Assembly: GCF_000299395.1 (NCBI RefSeq)
Contig: NC_018656.1
Span: 868,001 to 932,000 of the forward strand
Direction: 5' to 3'
Length of the DNA: 64,000 nucleotides
Source of the DNA: Candidatus Nitrosopumilus sediminis
GTDB lineage: Archaea; Thermoproteota; Nitrososphaeria; Nitrososphaerales; Nitrosopumilaceae
Below, piece after piece: positions 3-63,848 of the stretch; position 1 is the first letter of the stretch, and each line of letters begins with the position of its first letter. The notes under the pieces were generated by a model, which searched no databases, was not told the origin of the DNA, and saw nothing but the letters and a program-made list of their open reading frames with translations. Made by a program: the position numbers and the translations under genes.

Positions 3-1199
3 GCAAAAATCAATTATTTTGCTATCAGGGATTTTGTATATCTTGGAAAAATCGAACCATTGATGAGAGATCATATGATTGAAGAAATTAGTTGTGATGG
101 AACAAACATTCCGTTATACATATGGCATCGAGAACACGAGTCAATGCCAACAAACATCATATTTGAAAAAGATGCAGAACTAAATAATTTTTCAAGAAAG
201 ATGGCATATATTTGTGGAAAACATGTTTCGATGGCAGACCCAATTATTGATGCATCATTACCAAATGGAAGTAGAATCAATTTGACATTAGGTCATGAAA
301 TTACCAAACGTGGGAGTACATTTACAATTAGAAGATTTAGAGCAGACCCAATTACGATTATTGATTTAATAAAATTTGGAACCATATCAGTGGATATTGC
401 TGCATACATGTGGTATTTAGCTGAAAAGAAAGCAACGATGTTAATTGCAGGAGGCACTGCAAGTGGCAAAACAACTGCATTGAACGCATTGGCCTCATTT
501 ATCAGACCAGGGGAAAAAGTAGTAAGCATAGAAGACACACAGGAACTCAATCTACCTCATGAAAATTGGATTCCTGCAGTCTCAAGACAAAATTTTACAG
601 ATACTCAAATTGGAGAAATTAATCAATTTGATCTTTTAAGAGCAGCATTAAGGCAACGACCAGACATCATCATAGTAGGAGAAACTAGAGGAAGAGAGGC
701 ATACACGTTGTTTCAGGCAATGGCAACAGGCCACGGGGGATTCTCATCAATTCATGCAGATTCAGTAGATGCAACATTAACCAGACTAACATCATCTCCA
801 ATGGATGTTCCAAAAGCCTTAATCTCAAATAGTCTTGATTTGATCACACTGCAACTGAAAATCAGAGTGGGTGACAAATCAGCAAGAAGAATCATCCAGG
901 TTTCAGAAATTGATGGTATCGATGAAGTGACAGGACAAATCAAAACTCATGAAATTTTCAAATGGAATCCTAAAACGGACACTCATGAATATATGGGAGA
1001 CAGTGTTATTTTCAAAAAACTCAAAGATAGAGATGGAGATTCAGAAGAAAAGATCAATTATGAATTGACAAAAAGAAGACTAGCACTAGAATGGATGGTA
1101 AAAAACGACATTCGTGATCATAAAGAAGTAACTGCAAATGTAATGGATTTCTATGCAGACCCTGAAAGATTCTATGAAAGAAAGAGACTCGAGGTATAA
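3..1199 (+). CDS. Type IV pilus/archaellum-type secretion ATPase (VirB11/FlaI-like), 5' truncated
   Basis: Hexameric assembly ATPase that powers type IV pilus, archaellum or related export at the cytoplasmic membrane. The frame is open to the left edge of the window, so the N-terminus lies outside; 398 residues are visible. The N-terminal part resembles the FlaI/VirB11 N-domain (Glu-Pro, then Arg-Asp and Ile-Glu-Glu-Ile-Ser). A Walker A motif GGTASGKTT lies near visible residue 155 and a Walker B-like IIIVGETRGREA near residue 220, followed by a Gly-His-Gly-Gly stretch typical of the family. Two T2SF membrane proteins follow directly, the usual order for an archaeal pilus motor and platform. 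Whether it drives pili or another appendage cannot be told because the pilin genes are outside the window. Confidence 0.9.
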   Translation, partial: AKINYFAIRDFVYLGKIEPLMRDHMIEEISCDGTNIPLYIWHREHESMPTNIIFEKDAELNNFSRKMAYICGKHVSMADPIIDASLPNGSRINLTLGHEITKRGSTFTIRRFRADPITIIDLIKFGTISVDIAAYMWYLAEKKATMLIAGGTASGKTTALNALASFIRPGEKVVSIEDTQELNLPHENWIPAVSRQNFTDTQIGEINQFDLLRAALRQRPDIIIVGETRGREAYTLFQAMATGHGGFSSIHADSVDATLTRLTSSPMDVPKALISNSLDLITLQLKIRVGDKSARRIIQVSEIDGIDEVTGQIKTHEIFKWNPKTDTHEYMGDSVIFKKLKDRDGDSEEKINYELTKRRLALEWMVKNDIRDHKEVTANVMDFYADPERFYERKRLEV

Positions 1200-51781: not shown

Positions 51782-52096
51782 TTAAGGATTAACCATCTTT
51801 AATTTATCCTCAATTCTGTCATAATATCCGTTGATTTCCATTGCAGGAATGTTGAATGTTGCAGAAACAGTATCTCCAACAGCAGCACTGCAATTAGTAA
51901 CAACAACGGAACGTCCAATAGCGGACTCTCCAACACAGCCATAGTTAGTTACTGCAATTACTGTCACATCTTCAGTAACAGAGATAGGAATCAGATTCCA
52001 AGGGGTGATTGTAAACACCAGTGTTACTGAAATCGCAACAGCTAAAATTGCTGCGAACTTTAACTGAGGGGTTTTTTGGTTTGTTGTTTGTTGCAT
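51782..52096 (-). CDS. Membrane-anchored protein, regulon member
   Basis: About 104 residues from ATG 52096 (ATG 52105 possible): helix at about 16-36 (FAAILAVAISVTLVFTITPW), then a beta-rich, Cys-containing outer region (TNYGCVGESAIGRSVVVTNC). Two Cys could form a disulphide. The TTAGCACTAG-type element and a TTATATCTC box lie upstream, placing it in the shared-promoter group. Confidence 0.65.
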   Translation of the reverse strand: MQQTTNQKTPQLKFAAILAVAISVTLVFTITPWNLIPISVTEDVTVIAVTNYGCVGESAIGRSVVVTNCSAAVGDTVSATFNIPAMEINGYYDRIEDKLKMVNP

Positions 52097-52132
52097 TTTT
52101 CTCACTCTTATTTACAATTCATGAGATATAAC

Positions 52133-52160
52133 CTAGGGGTAATTTTTTAGATAGTGCTAA
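52133..52160 (-). promoter_or_regulatory. Paired TTAGCACTAG-type element (distal TTAGCACTAT, proximal TTACCCCTAG)
   Basis: On the minus strand TTAGCACTAT (52160-52151) is followed 18 bp later by the weaker TTACCCCTAG (52142-52133), then a TTATATCTC box 36 bp before the ATG of the 51782 gene. Orientation and pitch match the other pairs. Confidence 0.55.
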
Positions 52161-52642: not shown

Positions 52643-53077
52643 TTAAACATCCTTCATTCTTTTAGAATAATCATAATAGACGATTTTTTGAGGAGTTATT
52701 TCAATTGCAACTTCTGTGCTTAGATTTTTTTGCAAATATTGAGACAAGGTAGATGTTTTATCACCAAGATATTTTGCCATTAATAATGAAAGGATTTTTT
52801 TTCCATCACTTGGGATAATTTTTGCAAGACCAGTTCCACGAAATCCTTTGTATGGAGGTTTATCGGCGGCAATTTCAAATCCACAATGAGGATTTTTTTC
52901 CAAATATGAAACTATTTTTGCTTTTTTCTGTGTAGCGCAATAAATTTTTCCTTCAATTAGTTCATACCATAGTGATATTATATTTGGAGAGCCATCATGC
53001 TTTATGAATGCAATCCGTATCGGGATTCTTGAGTCATCAATCATGTTGTCGCAGAATTGCTTATCTAATTGTTGCAT
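52643..53077 (-). CDS. FMN-binding split-barrel protein (PPOX-like), regulon member
   Basis: 144 residues from ATG 53077. IRIAFIKHDGSPNIISLWYE is the split-barrel signature, with IYCATQKKAKIVSYLEKNP and FRGTGLAKIIPSDGKK following. Likely a flavin- or F420-linked oxidoreductase. It overlaps the zinc-ribbon gene upstream by 17 bases. Flavin plus UV-repair neighbours suit a light or oxidative response. Confidence 0.8.
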   Translation of the reverse strand: MQQLDKQFCDNMIDDSRIPIRIAFIKHDGSPNIISLWYELIEGKIYCATQKKAKIVSYLEKNPHCGFEIAADKPPYKGFRGTGLAKIIPSDGKKILSLLMAKYLGDKTSTLSQYLQKNLSTEVAIEITPQKIVYYDYSKRMKDV

Positions 53078-53189
53078 GATAATTACCTCCAATAAATTTT
53101 ATAATAGATTTGCTATAGCAATAATCACAAGACCATCCTTCAAAGGTATAACCACATTGATTACATTTTTGAGAGATAGCGTATTTCAT
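53061..53189 (-). CDS. 42-residue zinc-ribbon protein, first gene of the repair operon
   Basis: CNQCGYTFEGWSCDYCYSK has two CxxC knuckles, at residues 9-12 and 21-24. ATG 53189 lies 28 bp after a TTCATATATT box, so the mRNA is leaderless; a longer start at 53249 would run through the promoter element. Co-translated with the flavin protein. Confidence 0.65.
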   Translation of the reverse strand: MKYAISQKCNQCGYTFEGWSCDYCYSKSIIKFIGGNYHATIR

Positions 53190-53217: not shown

Positions 53218-53246
53218 ATAGTGCTCAAAATTATAACTAGTGCTAA
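53218..53246 (-). promoter_or_regulatory. Paired TTAGCACTAG-type element, divergent promoter
   Basis: On the minus strand TTAGCACTAG (53246-53237) and TTGAGCACTA (53228-53219) are repeated at a 19-bp pitch, directly before the TTCATATATT box of the zinc-ribbon operon. The plus-strand gene at 53297 may use the same region. Confidence 0.65.
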
Positions 53247-56023: not shown

Positions 56024-56923
56024 TTATTCCAGATTTAATGGAATAGAGATGCTGCCAAAGGATTCACTGCCTCTAAAGTAATAGTCTTTATTTGAATCGT
56101 ATTCAAATGTAGTTCCTCCACCACCAATATTAGGTCCAAAGAACATGTTGAATATTTTAGATTGTCCAGGGGGCAAAATTATTTGGCCGTTTGTAAAATC
56201 CATTCCTGAATATTTGTAATCAGTGTCACCATTGGTAACATCATAGTTACAAATTGCAGGTCCTGTACAGAAAAGGGCTTCTTGAATAGAACCGTTATTT
56301 TCAACTAAGATTCTAAGTCGGAGCATTGCTTGTCCCGAAGAGGTTATTTCAAAGCTATTTCCTTCAGTTCCAAATCCAGGCCAGTAGTAAGTAACAGGTC
56401 CGGCTTGATATGGTTGAGAAATCAGTTTGTAATTATATGCAGTGATTTCATGTTTTGCAGATCTTTCACAGTTTAGTCGGTCATAGGCTTTTGTGATCTT
56501 TGAGCATTCATCTAATTCACTTTGAAGTAAAGCCAATTCCAAATCCCCAGAGTCAGCAGAAACTTCACCTAGAGAGATTTCAGATGAAGGAACAGTTACT
56601 AATCCAATTTTCATCAAATGCTGAATCCCATTTACAAATTCACCATCAGAAATTGTTCCATCTGCCCACCATCCCGCGTTGTTTTTAACCCAACTAGGGA
56701 CTTTGTCAGAAGTTTCTGAAGATATAGATGTTGAAGGCACTTTGATTATTCCATCTTTTATTAGAAATGAAATCCCAGTAAGAAATTCAGATTCAGATAT
56801 TGTTCCATCTGCCCACCATCCCGCGTTGTTTTTAACCCAACTAGGGACTTCTGCATATGCAGTAGAAACAGTTGAAGCAATTATCAGAATTGATGCGATT
56901 GTAGTTATTGTGATTTTCATCAT
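56024..56923 (-). CDS. Secreted protein with two VPSWVKNNAGWWADG repeats
   Basis: 299 residues. Signal peptide to about residue 24 (STAYA), two copies of a 49-residue repeat (VPSWVKNNAGWWADGTIS, starting about residues 26 and 75), then a beta-rich C-terminal domain. The repeat is a common thaumarchaeal surface module. ATG 56923 is 26 bp after a TTATATAT box and the TTGGCACTAG element. Confidence 0.75.
   Translation of the reverse strand: MMKITITTIASILIIASTVSTAYAEVPSWVKNNAGWWADGTISESEFLTGISFLIKDGIIKVPSTSISSETSDKVPSWVKNNAGWWADGTISDGEFVNGIQHLMKIGLVTVPSSEISLGEVSADSGDLELALLQSELDECSKITKAYDRLNCERSAKHEITAYNYKLISQPYQAGPVTYYWPGFGTEGNSFEITSSGQAMLRLRILVENNGSIQEALFCTGPAICNYDVTNGDTDYKYSGMDFTNGQIILPPGQSKIFNMFFGPNIGGGGTTFEYDSNKDYYFRGSESFGSISIPLNLE
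56652..56703. repeat. Exact 52-bp repeat, copy 1
   Basis: Identical to 56799-56850; encodes the VPSWVKNNAGWWADGTIS part of the second protein repeat. Exact identity at the DNA level suggests recent duplication or conversion. Confidence 0.8.
56799..56850. repeat. Exact 52-bp repeat, copy 2
   Basis: Same as 56652-56703, 147 bp (49 codons) away, in the first protein repeat. Confidence 0.8.
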
Positions 56924-56950: not shown

Positions 56951-56978
56951 CTAGTGCCAAGGTATTATCTAGTGGTAA
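56951..56978 (-). promoter_or_regulatory. Paired TTAGCACTAG-type element (TTACCACTAG, TTGGCACTAG)
   Basis: Minus-strand TTACCACTAG (56978-56969) and TTGGCACTAG (56960-56951), 18 bp apart, the second directly before the TTATATAT box of the 56024-56923 gene. Confidence 0.65.
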
Positions 56979-56998
56979 CATTCAACAGTGATTAAAAC

Positions 56999-57008
56999 AT
57001 AGTGCCAA
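56999..57008 (-). promoter_or_regulatory. Third TTGGCACTAT site, between divergent genes
   Basis: ATAGTGCCAA on the plus strand, 30 bp from the nearest site and about 25 bp before the TATA-like TTATATGC of the YbgA-family gene. May serve the plus-strand gene. Confidence 0.5.
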
Positions 57009-57059
57009 TTGATCAGAAAGAAGAATTTGCTTATATGCAAATTGAAAAGAACTTCAAAA

Positions 57060-57602
57060 GTGGATAAAAAACATGAAACAATAAACTCAGAAACACATTC
57101 AATTTCAGAAAAAGATGCGATTGAATTTGTAATGAAAAGATTTCAGGATGTAAAAAATTCAAATAAAATAGAAAATTTGGTTTCATTTCAAGCGATGAAC
57201 AAGTATATGGTCATGGCACATAATCAGCATGAATTAAAGATTTTAGGAAATATTGTTGCAAGTAACAAAAAAAATCAATTCCAAAAAATAGTAAAAGAAT
57301 TCGAGGTACATCTTAAAAAAGCATTAGAAAGCGAACCTACAATCAAGAAACACAGTAATGTGCTATTACATATTTTTGGGTATTTTTCAAATAATTTTAA
57401 TCAACAAGAGAAAGAATGGTTTTTTAATTTATTGGGAGAATTCAAAGAAGAAAGCATCACCATCGGAGAAATCCTGTCTGAAATTAATTCAGTGATTTAT
57501 CGATTCAATAACACATATCTTGCTGGTCAGACATATTTTTTACTATATTCAAATCTCAACTCAGGGAATTTGTTTAAACGGTTATCAAAAGAAAGATATT
57601 AA
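57060..57602 (+). CDS. YbgA-family protein (DUF1722), photolyase-associated
   Basis: About 180 residues: LVSFQAMNKYMVMAHNQHEL near 44, HSNVLLHIFGYFSNNFNQQE near 100 and YLAGQTYFLLY near 160 are the DUF1722 signature. In E. coli ybgA precedes the photolyase gene, but no photolyase is in this window. GTG 57060 fits a leaderless mRNA, 27 bp after TTATATGC; TTG 57009 or 57042 are alternatives. Shares a promoter region with the regulon. Confidence 0.8.
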   Translation: MDKKHETINSETHSISEKDAIEFVMKRFQDVKNSNKIENLVSFQAMNKYMVMAHNQHELKILGNIVASNKKNQFQKIVKEFEVHLKKALESEPTIKKHSNVLLHIFGYFSNNFNQQEKEWFFNLLGEFKEESITIGEILSEINSVIYRFNNTYLAGQTYFLLYSNLNSGNLFKRLSKERY

Positions 57603-58756
57603 AAAAAATCAGATATTGTTTTTTGTCTCATTAATTCAATAATATTACCATGAGATAGCCATTCAGACTTGCTAATACTCATCTTCTTTGATGCCAAAAA
57701 TAAAGCATGATCAAAATTATCGGCGACGACACAGTTTTGATTCATTGCCTCGCGAATTCCTTCTCGTACTTGCCATATACCAACTGGAATAGCATATTCA
57801 GGACGAATTTCTCGTAAAATCACAGCTCCTGCCTGAATTTTGTGCCTATTCAGATACTCCAAAACACCTAATTTTGCTGCAAAATATGCACCAGCAATTT
57901 TTGGGGGATGATCTATTCCACGTGCATCTTCATGATCAGAACCAAAACCGATAATATCATTAGAATACCATGCTTCAATCATTTCATAGACCCATCTATG
58001 CGGAAACAATACAACGGTGAAGATATTCCCCAAGTGCTCATATGAAAATACTCGATAAGAATCAATTAAACCGTAATTCAAAATATCCTCAGTGAGAGAT
58101 TTACAAATTATATCATCAGTTGCAGTGATGCTCCATTTAGTGGGCACTAGTTTCCTTTTTTGGCCCAACATTCCAATGCTAAAACATTTTTGAATTTTTG
58201 AAATTTCAATTCCAGAATTATATAAATTTAATACAGCATCTTGGGCTTTCAAATCTTTATCATAATATGTTTTTTCTATAGATTTGACAGATGTAGTTCC
58301 AGAGAATTTTGCAGATTTGATTTCACCAACAGGACCAAAAGGAGCACTCTCCCCATCCATAGAAATGTTGGGAGATGTAGCTTTTTGAAAAATCAAATCA
58401 GAATCTATAGGTTTTGAAGACATTGCAACCTCTTGAAGATTTTCAATGTAACGTCCATCAGTTTGGTCAATAGGTATTTTTTGTATGCCCCGAACTAAAT
58501 TCAATCTAAAATTAACAATGTCTTCCAAAGACTTTCCTTTCCACTGTTCAGGACTATCAAGTAAGCTTGTATCACCATGCAATGGAGGAACCATAGGACC
58601 AACAAAGACTTTAGGATAATCATACGAGCCAACAAAAACAGATGGAGGGCTTGTTCCACTAACAGAATCAGAAGAAAATAGATTCCCATGTTTTGAAATG
58701 GATTCATGCCATTTAGCCAAAATTGCATGACGAATGTTTTGAGAATCAAAAGACAT
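57599..58756 (-). CDS. Archaeal DNA repair protein NreA/NreB family
   Basis: 385 residues. The N-terminal GTSPPSVFVGSYDYPKVFVG and MVPPLHGDTSLLDSPEQW, central APFGPVGEIKSAKFSGTTSV and late PHRWVYEMIEAWY are NreA-like. It ends QKTISDFF, an exact PCNA box (Q-x2-I-x2-F-F). In haloarchaea NreA is needed after DNA damage by a PCNA-linked route. The N-terminal zinc finger of NreA is not evident, so it may be the NreB type. Confidence 0.85.
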   Translation of the reverse strand: MSFDSQNIRHAILAKWHESISKHGNLFSSDSVSGTSPPSVFVGSYDYPKVFVGPMVPPLHGDTSLLDSPEQWKGKSLEDIVNFRLNLVRGIQKIPIDQTDGRYIENLQEVAMSSKPIDSDLIFQKATSPNISMDGESAPFGPVGEIKSAKFSGTTSVKSIEKTYYDKDLKAQDAVLNLYNSGIEISKIQKCFSIGMLGQKRKLVPTKWSITATDDIICKSLTEDILNYGLIDSYRVFSYEHLGNIFTVVLFPHRWVYEMIEAWYSNDIIGFGSDHEDARGIDHPPKIAGAYFAAKLGVLEYLNRHKIQAGAVILREIRPEYAIPVGIWQVREGIREAMNQNCVVADNFDHALFLASKKMSISKSEWLSHGNIIELMRQKTISDFF

Positions 58757-59960: not shown

Positions 59961-61340
59961 CTAGATAGGTCTTCCTTTGTACTGATAATCTATCACCTTA
60001 TGAAACAAGTTATGAGATGCAATGACAGTGATTGATGCAACTGCAATACCAATAAAATTTCGAATAGTCATCAATTCATTTGGTTGCGATGCAATCAAGG
60101 AAGTTTCAAAAACGACATAAAAGTCATCAAATAACCAAAATGCCAGAGTCACCCAAGAAATCATTCCTGCAATAAAATATCCTAAGCGGGTTTTATTTCG
60201 AATTAATAATATTGACATGAAAATAGCAACATACCATACAGATGAACCCAGTAACCAAAGAGTTTGATAAACTTCAGGTCTATCATCTAACCAATAGTAT
60301 GATGTTCCAATGACGGCCAATGCAAATAATGAAATTTGGATGACGTTTTGATTGATTTTAAAACCAGATTTTTCTTCTTTTAATTCAGATTTTGGAGGGG
60401 AAGATTCCATTTCTTTTGTAGCAATGTCAATTGATTCTCTTACAGATTTTAATTTTAGAGGAATAATTTGAGTAATTTTATCATCAGTGACAACAGTGTC
60501 ATGTACAAGACTATCAATGAGAGGTCTTGCAAGAGAGGCTTTCACAGGAGTAATCAGATCAACCCAGTAAGATGAAAGCCGAGTAGTTAAAAATGGAATT
60601 TGTAAAACGAATAAATTTTTGTTCAAATATGCAGCATAGATTCTCATCAATTCCTCATAAGTGATTTTATCAGGACCTCCAATTTCAAATATTTGGCCCA
60701 CGGTTTCAGGCTTTGAAAGAGATTCTGCCAAATAGAAAATTACATCATCTACAGCAATTGGTTGAGCTAGAGATTTTACCCAAGAAGGACAAACCATTAT
60801 CCGTAATCGCTCCACAAGATAACGGAGCATTGCATAAGAGCCACCTTGTGCACCAATTATCAAGGATGCACGAAACTCAGTTACAGGAATGTTGCCAGAT
60901 GCAAGAATCTCACCAACTTCTTTGCGACTCCTCATATGAGGTGATAAATCCAAACTGTCATTGACCAATCCGCCCAAGTAAATGATTCTTTTTACTCCGG
61001 CCTTTGTAGCAGCTTGGAGGAAATTTTGAGCCTGAATTCTTTCTCTAGATGCAAACTCTTGCCATTGATCTTTAGTTCCTTCCATAGAATGAAGTAAATA
61101 AAATGCGATTTCGATTCCTTTCATTGCTTGACATAGTTGATCATTGTCAAACACATCAGCTTGTACATATTTTACATTGTTTGTAATATCTAATTTTCTT
61201 CTACTCAATCCAGTAACAGTATATCCATTAGAAGCGAGTAATGATATCAATCTAGAGCCAATAAAACCAGTGGAACCAGTAACCATAATTGAAAAAGGAG
61301 ATGATTGTGGAATAGTTTTAGATAAAATTATCTTATCCAT
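59961..61340 (-). CDS. NAD-binding epimerase/dehydratase-like protein with membrane tail, regulon member
   Basis: 459 residues. N-terminal SDR Rossmann domain (VTGSTGFIGSRLISLLAS near residue 20, YLGGLVNDS near 120) of the NDUFA9/NmrA-like type; no clear catalytic Tyr-x3-Lys. Four hydrophobic helices fill residues about 345-450. A GAGAGG ribosome site precedes ATG 61340. The promoter has a TTAGCACTAG-type pair. Similar SDR genes sit in bacterial LitR light-regulated clusters, as I recall. Confidence 0.75.
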   Translation of the reverse strand: MDKIILSKTIPQSSPFSIMVTGSTGFIGSRLISLLASNGYTVTGLSRRKLDITNNVKYVQADVFDNDQLCQAMKGIEIAFYLLHSMEGTKDQWQEFASRERIQAQNFLQAATKAGVKRIIYLGGLVNDSLDLSPHMRSRKEVGEILASGNIPVTEFRASLIIGAQGGSYAMLRYLVERLRIMVCPSWVKSLAQPIAVDDVIFYLAESLSKPETVGQIFEIGGPDKITYEELMRIYAAYLNKNLFVLQIPFLTTRLSSYWVDLITPVKASLARPLIDSLVHDTVVTDDKITQIIPLKLKSVRESIDIATKEMESSPPKSELKEEKSGFKINQNVIQISLFALAVIGTSYYWLDDRPEVYQTLWLLGSSVWYVAIFMSILLIRNKTRLGYFIAGMISWVTLAFWLFDDFYVVFETSLIASQPNELMTIRNFIGIAVASITVIASHNLFHKVIDYQYKGRPI

Positions 61341-61437: not shown

Positions 61438-61466
61438 CTAGTGATAATTTATTTTACTAGTTCTAA
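61438..61466 (-). promoter_or_regulatory. Paired TTAGCACTAG-type element (TTAGAACTAG, TTATCACTAG)
   Basis: Minus-strand TTAGAACTAG (61466-61457) and TTATCACTAG (61447-61438), 19 bp apart; the second abuts TTTAAATAAT, the TATA-like box of the 61340 gene. Confidence 0.6.
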
Positions 61467-61511: not shown

Positions 61512-61540
61512 TTAGCACTATACATTTTAATTAGCACTAG
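61512..61540 (+). promoter_or_regulatory. Paired TTAGCACTAG element of the B12-protein gene
   Basis: TTAGCACTAT (61512-61521) and TTAGCACTAG (61531-61540), a 19-bp pitch, followed by TTAAATAG. The ATG at 61568 is 27 bp after that box, so the mRNA is probably leaderless. The best-formed copy of the element. Confidence 0.7.
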
Positions 61541-61567
61541 TTAAATAGCAGTTGCCAAAAGAAAAGT

Positions 61568-62410
61568 ATGGTCTACATCAGAGCCAAGAAAGTAAAATCA
61601 GATCAGTATCTTTATCTCGTTAAAAGCATATGGGATTCAAAAAAAAGCACATCTAGACAAGAGATTGTAAAGTATCTTGGAAAGGCATCAGATGTAGTAA
61701 AAGACGATATACCAATAGAATACAGAAACGACCCCAAAGTGTTGTCAATTCTTGCATCACATAATCCAAAAGACATCAAAAAAAGAGAAGAGGCAACAAG
61801 AAAATCAAAGAAACGACTATACAAAAAATTAACTGAGGGGAATATCGAAGAATCTGTTAAAATTTACGAAGAATATGTTAAAATTTTTAATGAAGCAGAT
61901 TTTTTTGATAAAATCCTAAAACCAGTTATGTATGATATTGGCGAAGATTGGGCCAGTAACAAAATAAGTATAGCAACAGAGCATGTAGCCAGTAACATTG
62001 CCCAGACCCTAGTCAAAATTATCATGGATAAAGTTTCAGGAACAGCAAACAAGAAAAAAGTGCTAATATGCGTTCCATTAGGAGAAGAACATCATTTAGG
62101 ATGCGACGTATTGGAAACATATCTTTCAATAAAACGATTCAAAGTTTACAATATTGGGACTTCTATCCCAACAGAATCAATCATAAGTTTTATTGAAAAT
62201 AATAATCCCGACATAGTACTGATCTCAATAACATTACAAGATAATCTTTCTGCAGGTCAAAGACTAGTAAAAAAGATCAAAGAAAAACATAACATTCCAA
62301 TTTTAATTGGAGGGTGTGCCATGCAATCTAAAAAAATCCCAAAAATTGATGCCAAAATAGTATTAGATGTAAAATTAGAAGAGATTCCAAAAATTATACG
62401 AAGTGCATAA
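61568..62410 (+). CDS. B12-binding sensor with CarH/LitR-type motifs and a novel N-terminus
   Basis: 280 residues. Residues 1-45 (YLYLVKSIWDS, then RQEIVKYLGK) resemble the N-terminal segment of IS4/IS1634-type transposases; a Lys-rich helix (70-90) follows. Residues about 90-155 form the helical cap with W128-x9-E138-H139, the signature that holds adenosylcobalamin in CarH photoreceptors. Residues 162-280 are the B12 Rossmann domain with E173-x-H175-x2-G178, where H175 would be the lower ligand. A methyltransferase cap lacks the W-x9-EH motif. Likely a cobalamin, and perhaps light, sensor. Gene and divergent partner share the element region. Confidence 0.85.
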   Translation: MVYIRAKKVKSDQYLYLVKSIWDSKKSTSRQEIVKYLGKASDVVKDDIPIEYRNDPKVLSILASHNPKDIKKREEATRKSKKRLYKKLTEGNIEESVKIYEEYVKIFNEADFFDKILKPVMYDIGEDWASNKISIATEHVASNIAQTLVKIIMDKVSGTANKKKVLICVPLGEEHHLGCDVLETYLSIKRFKVYNIGTSIPTESIISFIENNNPDIVLISITLQDNLSAGQRLVKKIKEKHNIPILIGGCAMQSKKIPKIDAKIVLDVKLEEIPKIIRSA

Positions 62411-62418
62411 TTAAGATT

Positions 62419-62778
62419 TCAAGAGGTCAAATCCGATTCCAAATATTCTAACAAGTTTGTTTTTGAAATAGAAATATCAGGAAAGTGTTTTTTAATTTGA
62501 TGGTAAATTTTTACTAAAGAAGATTTAACTGCATTTGTCTTAACAGGATCAGTCATCGGGAATAAGCGGATAGTAGTTTTTTTTAGAGTTGTAGATATCT
62601 CAATTAAAAACTCTTGATGTTTTTCATCAATTATAACTGCAGGTAATAATGCGTTAAATCCATTTTTTTCCACATATATCGTCGAAATTTTTATCAGGGG
62701 GGATTTTTCAAATACAGAAGAAAAAGATTTGGCAAAATCAAATAGATCAATTTTCCTATCTAAAGAAATGTGAGGCAT
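62419..62778 (-). CDS. Hypothetical regulon protein
   Basis: 119 residues, mixed helix/strand, no known motif. It converges on the B12-sensor gene and is divergent from TFB; its promoter holds TTGGCACTAG. FNALLPAVIIDEKHQEFLIE and TTIRLFPMTDPVKTNAVKSS are the most distinctive parts. Could be a partner of the sensor or TFB. Confidence 0.6.
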   Translation of the reverse strand: MPHISLDRKIDLFDFAKSFSSVFEKSPLIKISTIYVEKNGFNALLPAVIIDEKHQEFLIEISTTLKKTTIRLFPMTDPVKTNAVKSSLVKIYHQIKKHFPDISISKTNLLEYLESDLTS

Positions 62779-62827: not shown

Positions 62828-62837
62828 CTAGTGCCAA
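62828..62837 (-). promoter_or_regulatory. TTGGCACTAG site of the 62419 gene
   Basis: CTAGTGCCAA on the plus strand. Points to the minus-strand hypothetical gene, directly before an AT-rich TATTTTTT stretch. Confidence 0.55.
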
Positions 62838-62870: not shown

Positions 62871-62880
62871 TTAGCACTAG
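62871..62880 (+). promoter_or_regulatory. TTAGCACTAG site of the TFB paralogue
   Basis: Points toward the TFB gene at 62928, followed by ATTTTAGA. The TFB paralogue is therefore itself in the promoter group. Confidence 0.6.
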
Positions 62881-62927: not shown

Positions 62928-63848
62928 ATGTTGGCGGAATTAATACATCAAAAAAATTGTAAAAAAAATAAAATAATTACTGATACATACACGGGGGAAA
63001 TAGCATGTAGTAATTGCGGGGTAGTTTCACTAGAAAAAGCAGTGGATACAAGTACAGAAGCAATAGGTCTCACCGGAGAAGAATATCAAACTAATTCCAG
63101 AGTAGGAATGAAAACATCATTGAAGATGGCAGATAGAGGATTATCTACAATAATGGAATCTCAAGATAAAGATGCGACAGGAAAATCACTATCAAATGAA
63201 AATAAAAGAATGTTTTATCGTTTGAGGATGTGGGATAGGAATAGTCGTTCGGCAATATCAATTAAATCATTTCAGAAAGCATTTACATTGCTAGATGGAA
63301 TTAGTTCAAAATTAGCATTACCTGAATCAGTAGTTGAGGAAACGGCTTATTTGTTTAGAAAAATTGCAGCAAAAAAAATACTAGCAGGAAGATCCACCGC
63401 ATCTATGTTATGTGCAACAGTTTACATCACATGTAGATTAACAGACACGCCAAGAACGTTACAGGATATAGCAAATGCAGGAAACATAAAGAAGAAAAAT
63501 TTGCAAAGAATTTACAGATTTCTTGTAAAAGAATTGGATTTGTATCCAGAAGCTTACAGTCCAATCGAATTTGTCAATAGGGTGTCCAAGGCAGTTCAAA
63601 TTTCAGAAAAAACTGAAAGATTGGCATTTAAAATATTGCATATATCCATGAAAGAAAAAGTATCTACAAGTAAAAATCCAATGGCAATGGTAGCGGCCGC
63701 CATTAATTTAGCATCATTGATGAATAAAGAAAAAGTCACTCAGTTGAAAATTGCAAAAATTTCTGGAATAAGTGCAGTTACAATCAGAAACATAACAAAT
63801 GAAATTAAAGAAAAAGTAGGAGGTGAAATTAATGGGAAGAACTTGTAG
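62928..63848 (+). CDS. Divergent TFB (transcription factor B) paralogue
   Basis: 306 residues. Two cyclin repeats are clear (LAGRSTASMLCATVYITCRL near 157, NPMAMVAAAINLASLMNKEK near 250, SGISAVTIRNITNEI near 280). The zinc ribbon is altered: Cys11 is followed by Lys-Lys-Asn instead of a CxxC pair, then Cys27 and Cys30, so one ligand is missing unless His7 serves. The B-linker also differs from the main TFB at 38072. Probably a specialised initiation factor; it lies in the TTAGCACTAG group. Confidence 0.85.
   Translation: MLAELIHQKNCKKNKIITDTYTGEIACSNCGVVSLEKAVDTSTEAIGLTGEEYQTNSRVGMKTSLKMADRGLSTIMESQDKDATGKSLSNENKRMFYRLRMWDRNSRSAISIKSFQKAFTLLDGISSKLALPESVVEETAYLFRKIAAKKILAGRSTASMLCATVYITCRLTDTPRTLQDIANAGNIKKKNLQRIYRFLVKELDLYPEAYSPIEFVNRVSKAVQISEKTERLAFKILHISMKEKVSTSKNPMAMVAAAINLASLMNKEKVTQLKIAKISGISAVTIRNITNEIKEKVGGEINGKNL
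63818..63826 (+). promoter_or_regulatory. Strong ribosome site AGGAGGTGA
   Basis: Near-perfect anti-16S match ending five bases before ATG 63832, inside the TFB gene, fixing the start of the last gene. Confidence 0.7.

Follow-up and report, generated by a model that had tools for sequence, protein, structure and literature searches.

In the present study, we describe a 280-residue protein of the Nitrosopumilales, encoded in the window (the whole stretch of 64,000 nucleotides of Candidatus Nitrosopumilus sediminis DNA that was analysed), which is probably a B12-dependent, light-responsive transcription regulator whose N-terminal module reads TTAGCACTA and controls its own regulon. It is also reasonably likely that this protein joins an archaeal CarH-type photosensory domain to an undescribed beta-sheet DNA-binding module, and that it governs a light/UV-stress regulon including photolyase and a dedicated TFB. 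As far as the searched literature shows, a known sensor domain, light-responsive in type by published criteria, would here be combined with a new DNA-binding-like module in a new domain of life. Light inhibition of ammonia-oxidising archaea shapes the sites of nitrification in oceans and lakes, and these archaea make cobalamin; in the open-licence literature, we found no described light sensor or B12 photoreceptor for them.

The B12 domain and its signature residues

The gene and the parts of its product are as follows.

61568..62410, plus strand: B12-domain regulator, 280 aa
61568..61765, plus strand: N-terminal module, residues 1-66, with three antiparallel strands (E2-9, E12-23, E28-39); putative DNA-binding part
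61766..62035, plus strand: four-helix bundle, residues 67-156, with G125-x2-W128 and E138-H139 (the AdoCbl cap in CarH)
62051..62407, plus strand: Rossmann B12 domain (residues 162-280); it contains the putative lower-ligand His in G172-x2-H175-x2-G178, as well as G197-x3-P201, S220 and GG248-249

The Pfam profile search of the 280-aa protein identified B12-binding (E=1.4e-13) and the helical B12-binding_2 (E=2.1e-10), and the top NCBIfam match was CarH (E=1.6e-16, with 60.4 bits against a curated cut-off of 400); with these E-values the assignment of the B12 domain is not a chance result. The C-terminus follows right after the Rossmann domain, with no further domain in the Pfam search or the AlphaFold model. 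The original prediction, which was made from the letters of the DNA, had named W128, E138, H139, E173, H175 and G178 as a CarH-like signature. All six residues were found at these positions, each pattern occurs once in the protein, and in HMMER alignments W128 and E138-H139 fall on the Trp and Glu-His of Thermus CarH and on their equivalents in CtMerR and the photocobilins. In CarH and LitR, these cap and His residues hold adenosylcobalamin, and light breaks the Co-C bond and alters DNA binding.

According to Yu et al. 2024, light-responsive B12 domains are marked by a partly validated signature of GxxW, EH, GxxH and GxxxP (PMC11796333). By pattern check, this four-part signature is complete in the present protein (G125-x2-W128, E138-H139, G172-x2-H175 and G197-x3-P201). 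In the alignment of 55 orthologues, G125, W128, E138, H139, G172, H175 and P201 are invariant, and position 197 is G, A or S within the protein family. A look at the W-x9-EH motif in other Nitrosopumilales had been proposed as a check; W128, E138 and H139 are kept in all 55 orthologues, and the W, E, H and H also in more distant homologues (29-34% identity), which belong to other families of the order.

The AlphaFold model has a pLDDT of 89.6 and the helical bundle and Rossmann fold of CarH. The best 50 Foldseek PDB matches listed were all photocobilins, TtCarH or CtMerR; their target-normalised TM for the B12 domain reached 0.86, and 5c8a, 8c73, 8j2w and 8jbs matched with prob 1.00. The comparison of the predicted structure with CarH, also proposed at the outset, gave a match of the B12-domain fold with TM 0.82-0.86. 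In TtCarH, H132 is the upper Co ligand after illumination and is needed for the bis-His light state and full monomerisation. Its position is A129 here and is A, S, E, D, K, Q or V, never His, in the orthologues read; other confirmed light-responsive B12 proteins are also devoid of an H132 equivalent, and the position is variable (PMC11796333). A cobalamin adenosyltransferase is encoded in the window's own genome.

The N-terminal module

The MerR helix-turn-helix had been predicted to be absent, and indeed no MerR match was obtained in the Pfam scan. In its place, a different module precedes the B12 domain, with Y3, R5, K7, Y14, Y16, W22, Q31 and K35 conserved; its invariant residues are mostly basic or aromatic (R5, K7, K10, Y14, Y16, W22, Q31 and K35), and the module may bind DNA. 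No family was found for it in Pfam, no match among PDB sequences and no match to plasmids by tblastn; the best match of the sheet among PDB folds reached only E=0.47, with no known DNA-binding fold. On these PDB fold, PDB sequence and Pfam searches, the reading of the module as a known fold was rejected. In 200 genomes of the phylum, the module was confined to this protein family in the Nitrosopumilaceae, the sole outside match being the weak one of a Fic-like protein, in its N-terminal part (E=7.7e-5); homologues with the module were found also in other families of the order. Since residues 1-58 have no Pfam, PDB or plasmid relative and the module is, apart from the weak Fic-like match, confined to its family in these genomes, the label "transposase-N-terminus-like", which it had been given at first, describes at most a remote resemblance. 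The broader proposal, that of a B12 photoreceptor or B12 sensor with a new architecture, is supported: the signature residues, their conservation across several genera, a fold that matches photoreceptors and not methyltransferases, and the replacement of MerR by a different N-terminal module all speak for it.

The operator in the window and in related genomes

The promoter of the gene contains a direct repeat of 28 bp, TTAGCACTA-N10-TTAGCACTA, with a period of 19 bp, and each repeat is a near-palindrome (TAG-CA-CTA). The following sites were found in the window.

61512..61539, plus strand: paired operator TTAGCACTA-N10-TTAGCACTA in the regulator's own promoter (-56/-37), with repeats at 61512 and 61531; it abuts the TATA box TTAAATA
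61541..61547, plus strand: TATA-like box TTAAATA of a leaderless-type promoter, with the start codon about 21-27 nt downstream
61439..61466, minus strand: paired operator TTAGAACTA-N10-TTATCACTA of the divergent SDR promoter, with repeats at 61439 and 61458
53219..53246, minus strand: paired operator TTAGCACTA-N10-TGAGCACTA, with repeats at 53219 and 53238; start codon 29 nt downstream
52134..52160, minus strand: variant paired operator, 18-bp period, before the 107-aa exported-type ORF 51782-52105
56952..57008, minus strand: variant operator TTACCACTA/TTGGCACTA, 18-bp period, with a third TTGGCACTA at 57000, before the exported protein 56024-56923
62829..62837, minus strand: half-operator TTGGCACTA; ORF 62419-62778 starts 50 nt downstream of it
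62871..62879, plus strand: half-operator TTAGCACTA, at -57 of the TFB gene

Genome-wide operator scans were carried out as pattern searches. With up to 2 mismatches, the three pairs of the window are the only pairs with a 19-bp period in the 1.69-Mb genome. Half-operators in this genome also precede a DUF6659 protein (L302:570-990, G000:C1 about 1,348,570) and small Cys-rich proteins (L300, L301).

In orthologue promoters, the pair lies at -57/-38 from the start codon and its second repeat touches the TATA box. This pair, or in Nitrosopelagicus the variant TTAGCACTA-N11-TAGGCACTA, was present in the own promoters of 77 of 78 GTDB orthologues, down to about 46% protein identity, and in other genera of the family the operator recurs at most of the orthologues that were read. 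When 52 promoters were aligned with the first repeat as anchor, that repeat was near-100% conserved, a value which is partly due to the anchoring; the second repeat and the TATA box were not anchored and most of their columns were conserved at 70-100%, against about 40% in the upstream flank. The operator is a clear phylogenetic footprint within otherwise unconserved DNA.

Among 60 genomes of the Nitrosopumilus group, the operator pair (with up to 1 mismatch) was found in 33 of the 35 with the orthologue and in none of the 25 without it (Fisher 7e-15). The p-value overstates the independent evidence because the genomes are related, and part of the co-occurrence is built in, since a genome that has the gene also has the gene's own promoter. 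In the two remaining genomes with the orthologue, the site is present with 2 mismatches. The mean number of half-operators located 46-49 nt before an ATG was 7.9 in genomes that carry the gene and 0.96 in those that do not, and the reversed pattern, used as a control, gave a mean of 0.25. The pair is also found at SDR promoters that lie about 340 kb away from the B12 gene (in G022 and G086), so that the co-occurrence is not wholly built in, though these distant sites remove only part of the bias. In G030 and G088, which have no B12 gene, the SDR gene has no operator. The bin G037 contains two full orthologues (L113 and L114; 83% and 71% identity), each with operator and linked targets; this is possibly a mixed bin or a duplication.

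Target genes

The start codons of the putative targets are mostly 29-30 nt downstream of the second repeat. Target families comprise the regulator itself, an FAD-dependent amine-oxidase-like enzyme, whose gene is the convergent neighbour in many genomes, an SDR, and small exported or zinc-ribbon-like proteins. In the window, these features belong to the putative regulon.

59961..61340, minus strand: divergent target gene, which encodes an SDR-family NAD(P)-binding protein that has hydrophobic stretches in its C-terminal part
52643..53189, minus strand: target unit of the Cys-rich zinc-ribbon-like ORF 53061-53189, then the pyridoxamine-oxidase-like 52643-53092 (Pfam below cut-off)
62928..63848, plus strand: TFB (archaeal TFIIB paralogue), putative regulon member

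The half-site of the TFB gene lies at exactly -57 in 34 copies, a count which includes redundant loci of the same genomes, and the gene of the 119-aa neighbour (ORF 62419-62778 in the window) has a half-operator at -57/-58 among the copies examined. Half-operators at -57 were also seen before genes for UspA, for a ferritin of the Dps type and for a DUF523-type protein (2-thiouracil-desulfurase/DUF1722). The other neighbour genes were free of the operator (BtuF-like 0/29, Nre 0/22 and the DUF1722 ORF 0/47, copies including redundant loci), and no cobalamin-synthesis, transport or methionine-synthase gene was among the targets read. A general promoter motif was rejected as an explanation of the operator, as the pair is absent both from genomes without the gene and from these neighbour genes.

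We also observed that the window encodes DUF1722 (57009-57602, plus strand) and the archaeal DNA-repair protein Nre (57599-58756, minus strand) nearby, both without operators of their own; DUF1722 is a photolyase-associated family in bacteria. The TFB paralogue at 62928-63848, which carries the -57 half-operator in many relatives, is possibly a light-dedicated general transcription factor. The LitR of bacteria controls the sigma factor LitS.

Photolyase and the paralogue

Photolyase was encoded by 17 of the 37 genomes with the orthologue or a paralogue and by none of the 23 with neither (60 genomes; 17 in all). The photolyase genes are located directly behind a 183-aa gene whose promoter bears TTGGCACTA at about -58, and in L250, L251, L253 and L263 (48-53% identity) photolyase adjoins the B12 gene. 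Photolyase is missing from the window's own genome and from many genomes in which the B12 protein is encoded. The 183-aa family, which has no Pfam match, stands either directly before photolyase (L126:910-1461, on the photolyase strand) or behind its own operator (L082_1073p); its reading as a DICT domain was dropped for want of Pfam support. Two small proteins (MEKYEQLLNMLMDFNESVRF..., MSRYEKLLHMLMDY...) adjoin the photolyase operon in L126-L139 (about 1-320 and 394-800, minus strand), with TTGGCACTA upstream.

A paralogue with 36-38% identity was also seen next to photolyase in several genomes.

L144:5405-6265, minus strand; L148:3546-4406, plus strand; L119:11971-12831, minus strand; L150:3180-4040, plus strand; and others: paralogue beside photolyase

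The paralogue has kept the N-terminal module and the GEQHTLG motif, but neither the cap Trp nor the EH pair remains, and because of this loss it may be a light-blind B12 partner. In a study of Great Lakes nitrifiers, photolyases of Nitrosarchaeum were reported and a B12 sensor was not (PMC9239080).

Proposed mechanism and alternative explanations

In the mechanism that we propose, the CarH-type bundle and Rossmann domain would hold adenosylcobalamin; H175 would be the lower ligand, and the adenosyl group would lie under W128, E138 and H139. The lineage-specific N-terminal beta-sheet module would read TTAGCACTA, in most cases as a pair of direct repeats (19-bp period) next to the BRE/TATA. In the dark, by analogy with CarH, an AdoCbl-bound oligomer would sit on the operators; since each repeat is a near-palindrome, two dimers, and hence a tetramer, would fit. 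In the light, Co-C cleavage would release or rearrange the oligomer and so alter the transcription of the regulator's own gene and those of the SDR, the FAD oxidoreductase, the dedicated TFB, photolyase and stress proteins. Adenosylcobalamin binding, photolysis and light sensing, DNA binding and the sign of regulation are predicted here by analogy and comparative analysis. The Ala129 in place of H132, the failure of the N-terminal module to match a known DNA-binding fold, the lack of photolyase in the window's own genome and in many others that have the protein, and the built-in part of the co-occurrence are points against this explanation.

Where a promoter has both repeats, the BRE is covered by the second one, which also touches the TATA box, so that repression fits there, and repression is slightly the more likely sign. 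The same light regulator might act as an activator, recruiting TFB/TBP from upstream of the BRE/TATA in one light state instead of blocking them, and this somewhat less likely variant of our explanation, which does not exclude it, would fit the TFB, ORF 62419-62778 and photolyase operons, where only the upstream -57 repeat is kept, clear of the BRE/TATA. However, the second repeat of the own and the other paired promoters is placed as if for occlusion, and CarH and LitR are repressors.

It is unlikely that the protein senses cobalamin supply or redox state and that its Co-C photochemistry is incidental. Targets such as Dps, UspA, SDR and the FAD oxidoreductase would suit redox stress, B12 domains of the superfamily also serve in roles other than light sensing, and the use of light is not provable by sequence. 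Nevertheless, the signature that separates light-responsive B12 domains is present in full, the best 50 Foldseek matches listed are photoreceptors throughout, and the linkage and co-occurrence with photolyase and stress genes, together with the absence of cobalamin-synthesis, transport and methionine-synthase genes from the targets read and of the operator from the BtuF-like neighbour, speak for the sensing of light rather than of B12 as such.

A corrinoid methyl carrier or enzyme subunit, with the operator read by another factor such as the neighbouring TFB, is very improbable. The protein does have moderate similarity to MetH and to corrinoid proteins, the BRE position is overlapped by one of the repeats, and the TFB gene is linked, but the cap residues are of CarH type, MetH structures rank behind the photoreceptors (best 50 Foldseek matches listed), all NCBIfam corrinoid models score far below cut-off, there is no methyltransferase among the neighbour genes scanned, and the most constant half-site, at -57, is too far upstream for a BRE. 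TFB as the reader was rejected, as operators persist in G036, G084 and G020, which have no TFB above about 45% identity, and at Nitrosopelagicus loci with no TFB nearby.

The light-responsive regulator that we favour suggests B12 light sensing in marine and freshwater ammonia-oxidising archaea. With a candidate receptor, a likely chromophore (AdoCbl), a 28-bp operator and a target list, light sensing in these archaea becomes directly testable. If our explanation is true, B12 photoreception extends to archaeal BRE/TATA promoters, the parts list of optogenetics gains a new DNA-binding module, and a dedicated TFB under a light regulator parallels the control of a sigma factor by LitR.

Comparison with known systems

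The B12 modules of corrinoid proteins and MetH belong to the same superfamily and share the His-on B12 binding motif, but they are not among the best 50 Foldseek matches listed, and they are not known to have the W-x9-EH cap. AerR (7TE2), which acts via a partner regulator, is a B12-binding photoreceptor of the wider superfamily (profile match E=2.8e-9) and differs in that it is not known to have an N-terminal module of this kind. The photocobilins (SasPcob 8J2W and AbDPcob 8J2Y) gave the best profile and fold matches of the B12 domain and are likewise free of MerR; however, they have a bilin-binding domain and no such DNA-binding module, and since the bilin domain is absent here the protein is not a photocobilin. 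CtMerR of Chloracidobacterium thermophilum (8JBS/8JBT), whose light response has been confirmed (PMC11796333), has the same GxxW, EH, GxxH and GxxxP elements and the same absence of an H132 equivalent (Arg there, Ala here), but it is bacterial and has a MerR-type DNA-binding domain.

The AdoCbl-dependent MerR-family photoreceptor repressors CarH (Thermus thermophilus, Myxococcus xanthus) and LitR resemble the archaeal protein in the B12 fold (TM 0.82-0.86), in W-x9-EH and GExH-x2-G, in the fusion of the B12 domain to an N-terminal module, in the direct-repeat operator and in divergent or neighbouring targets. As MerR is absent and the curated NCBIfam model is not reached, the protein is not a CarH or LitR in the strict sense. 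Instead of the MerR helix-turn-helix it has an unrelated beta-sheet module, it has no H132 equivalent, and its operator has a 19-bp period and lies at a BRE/TATA promoter.
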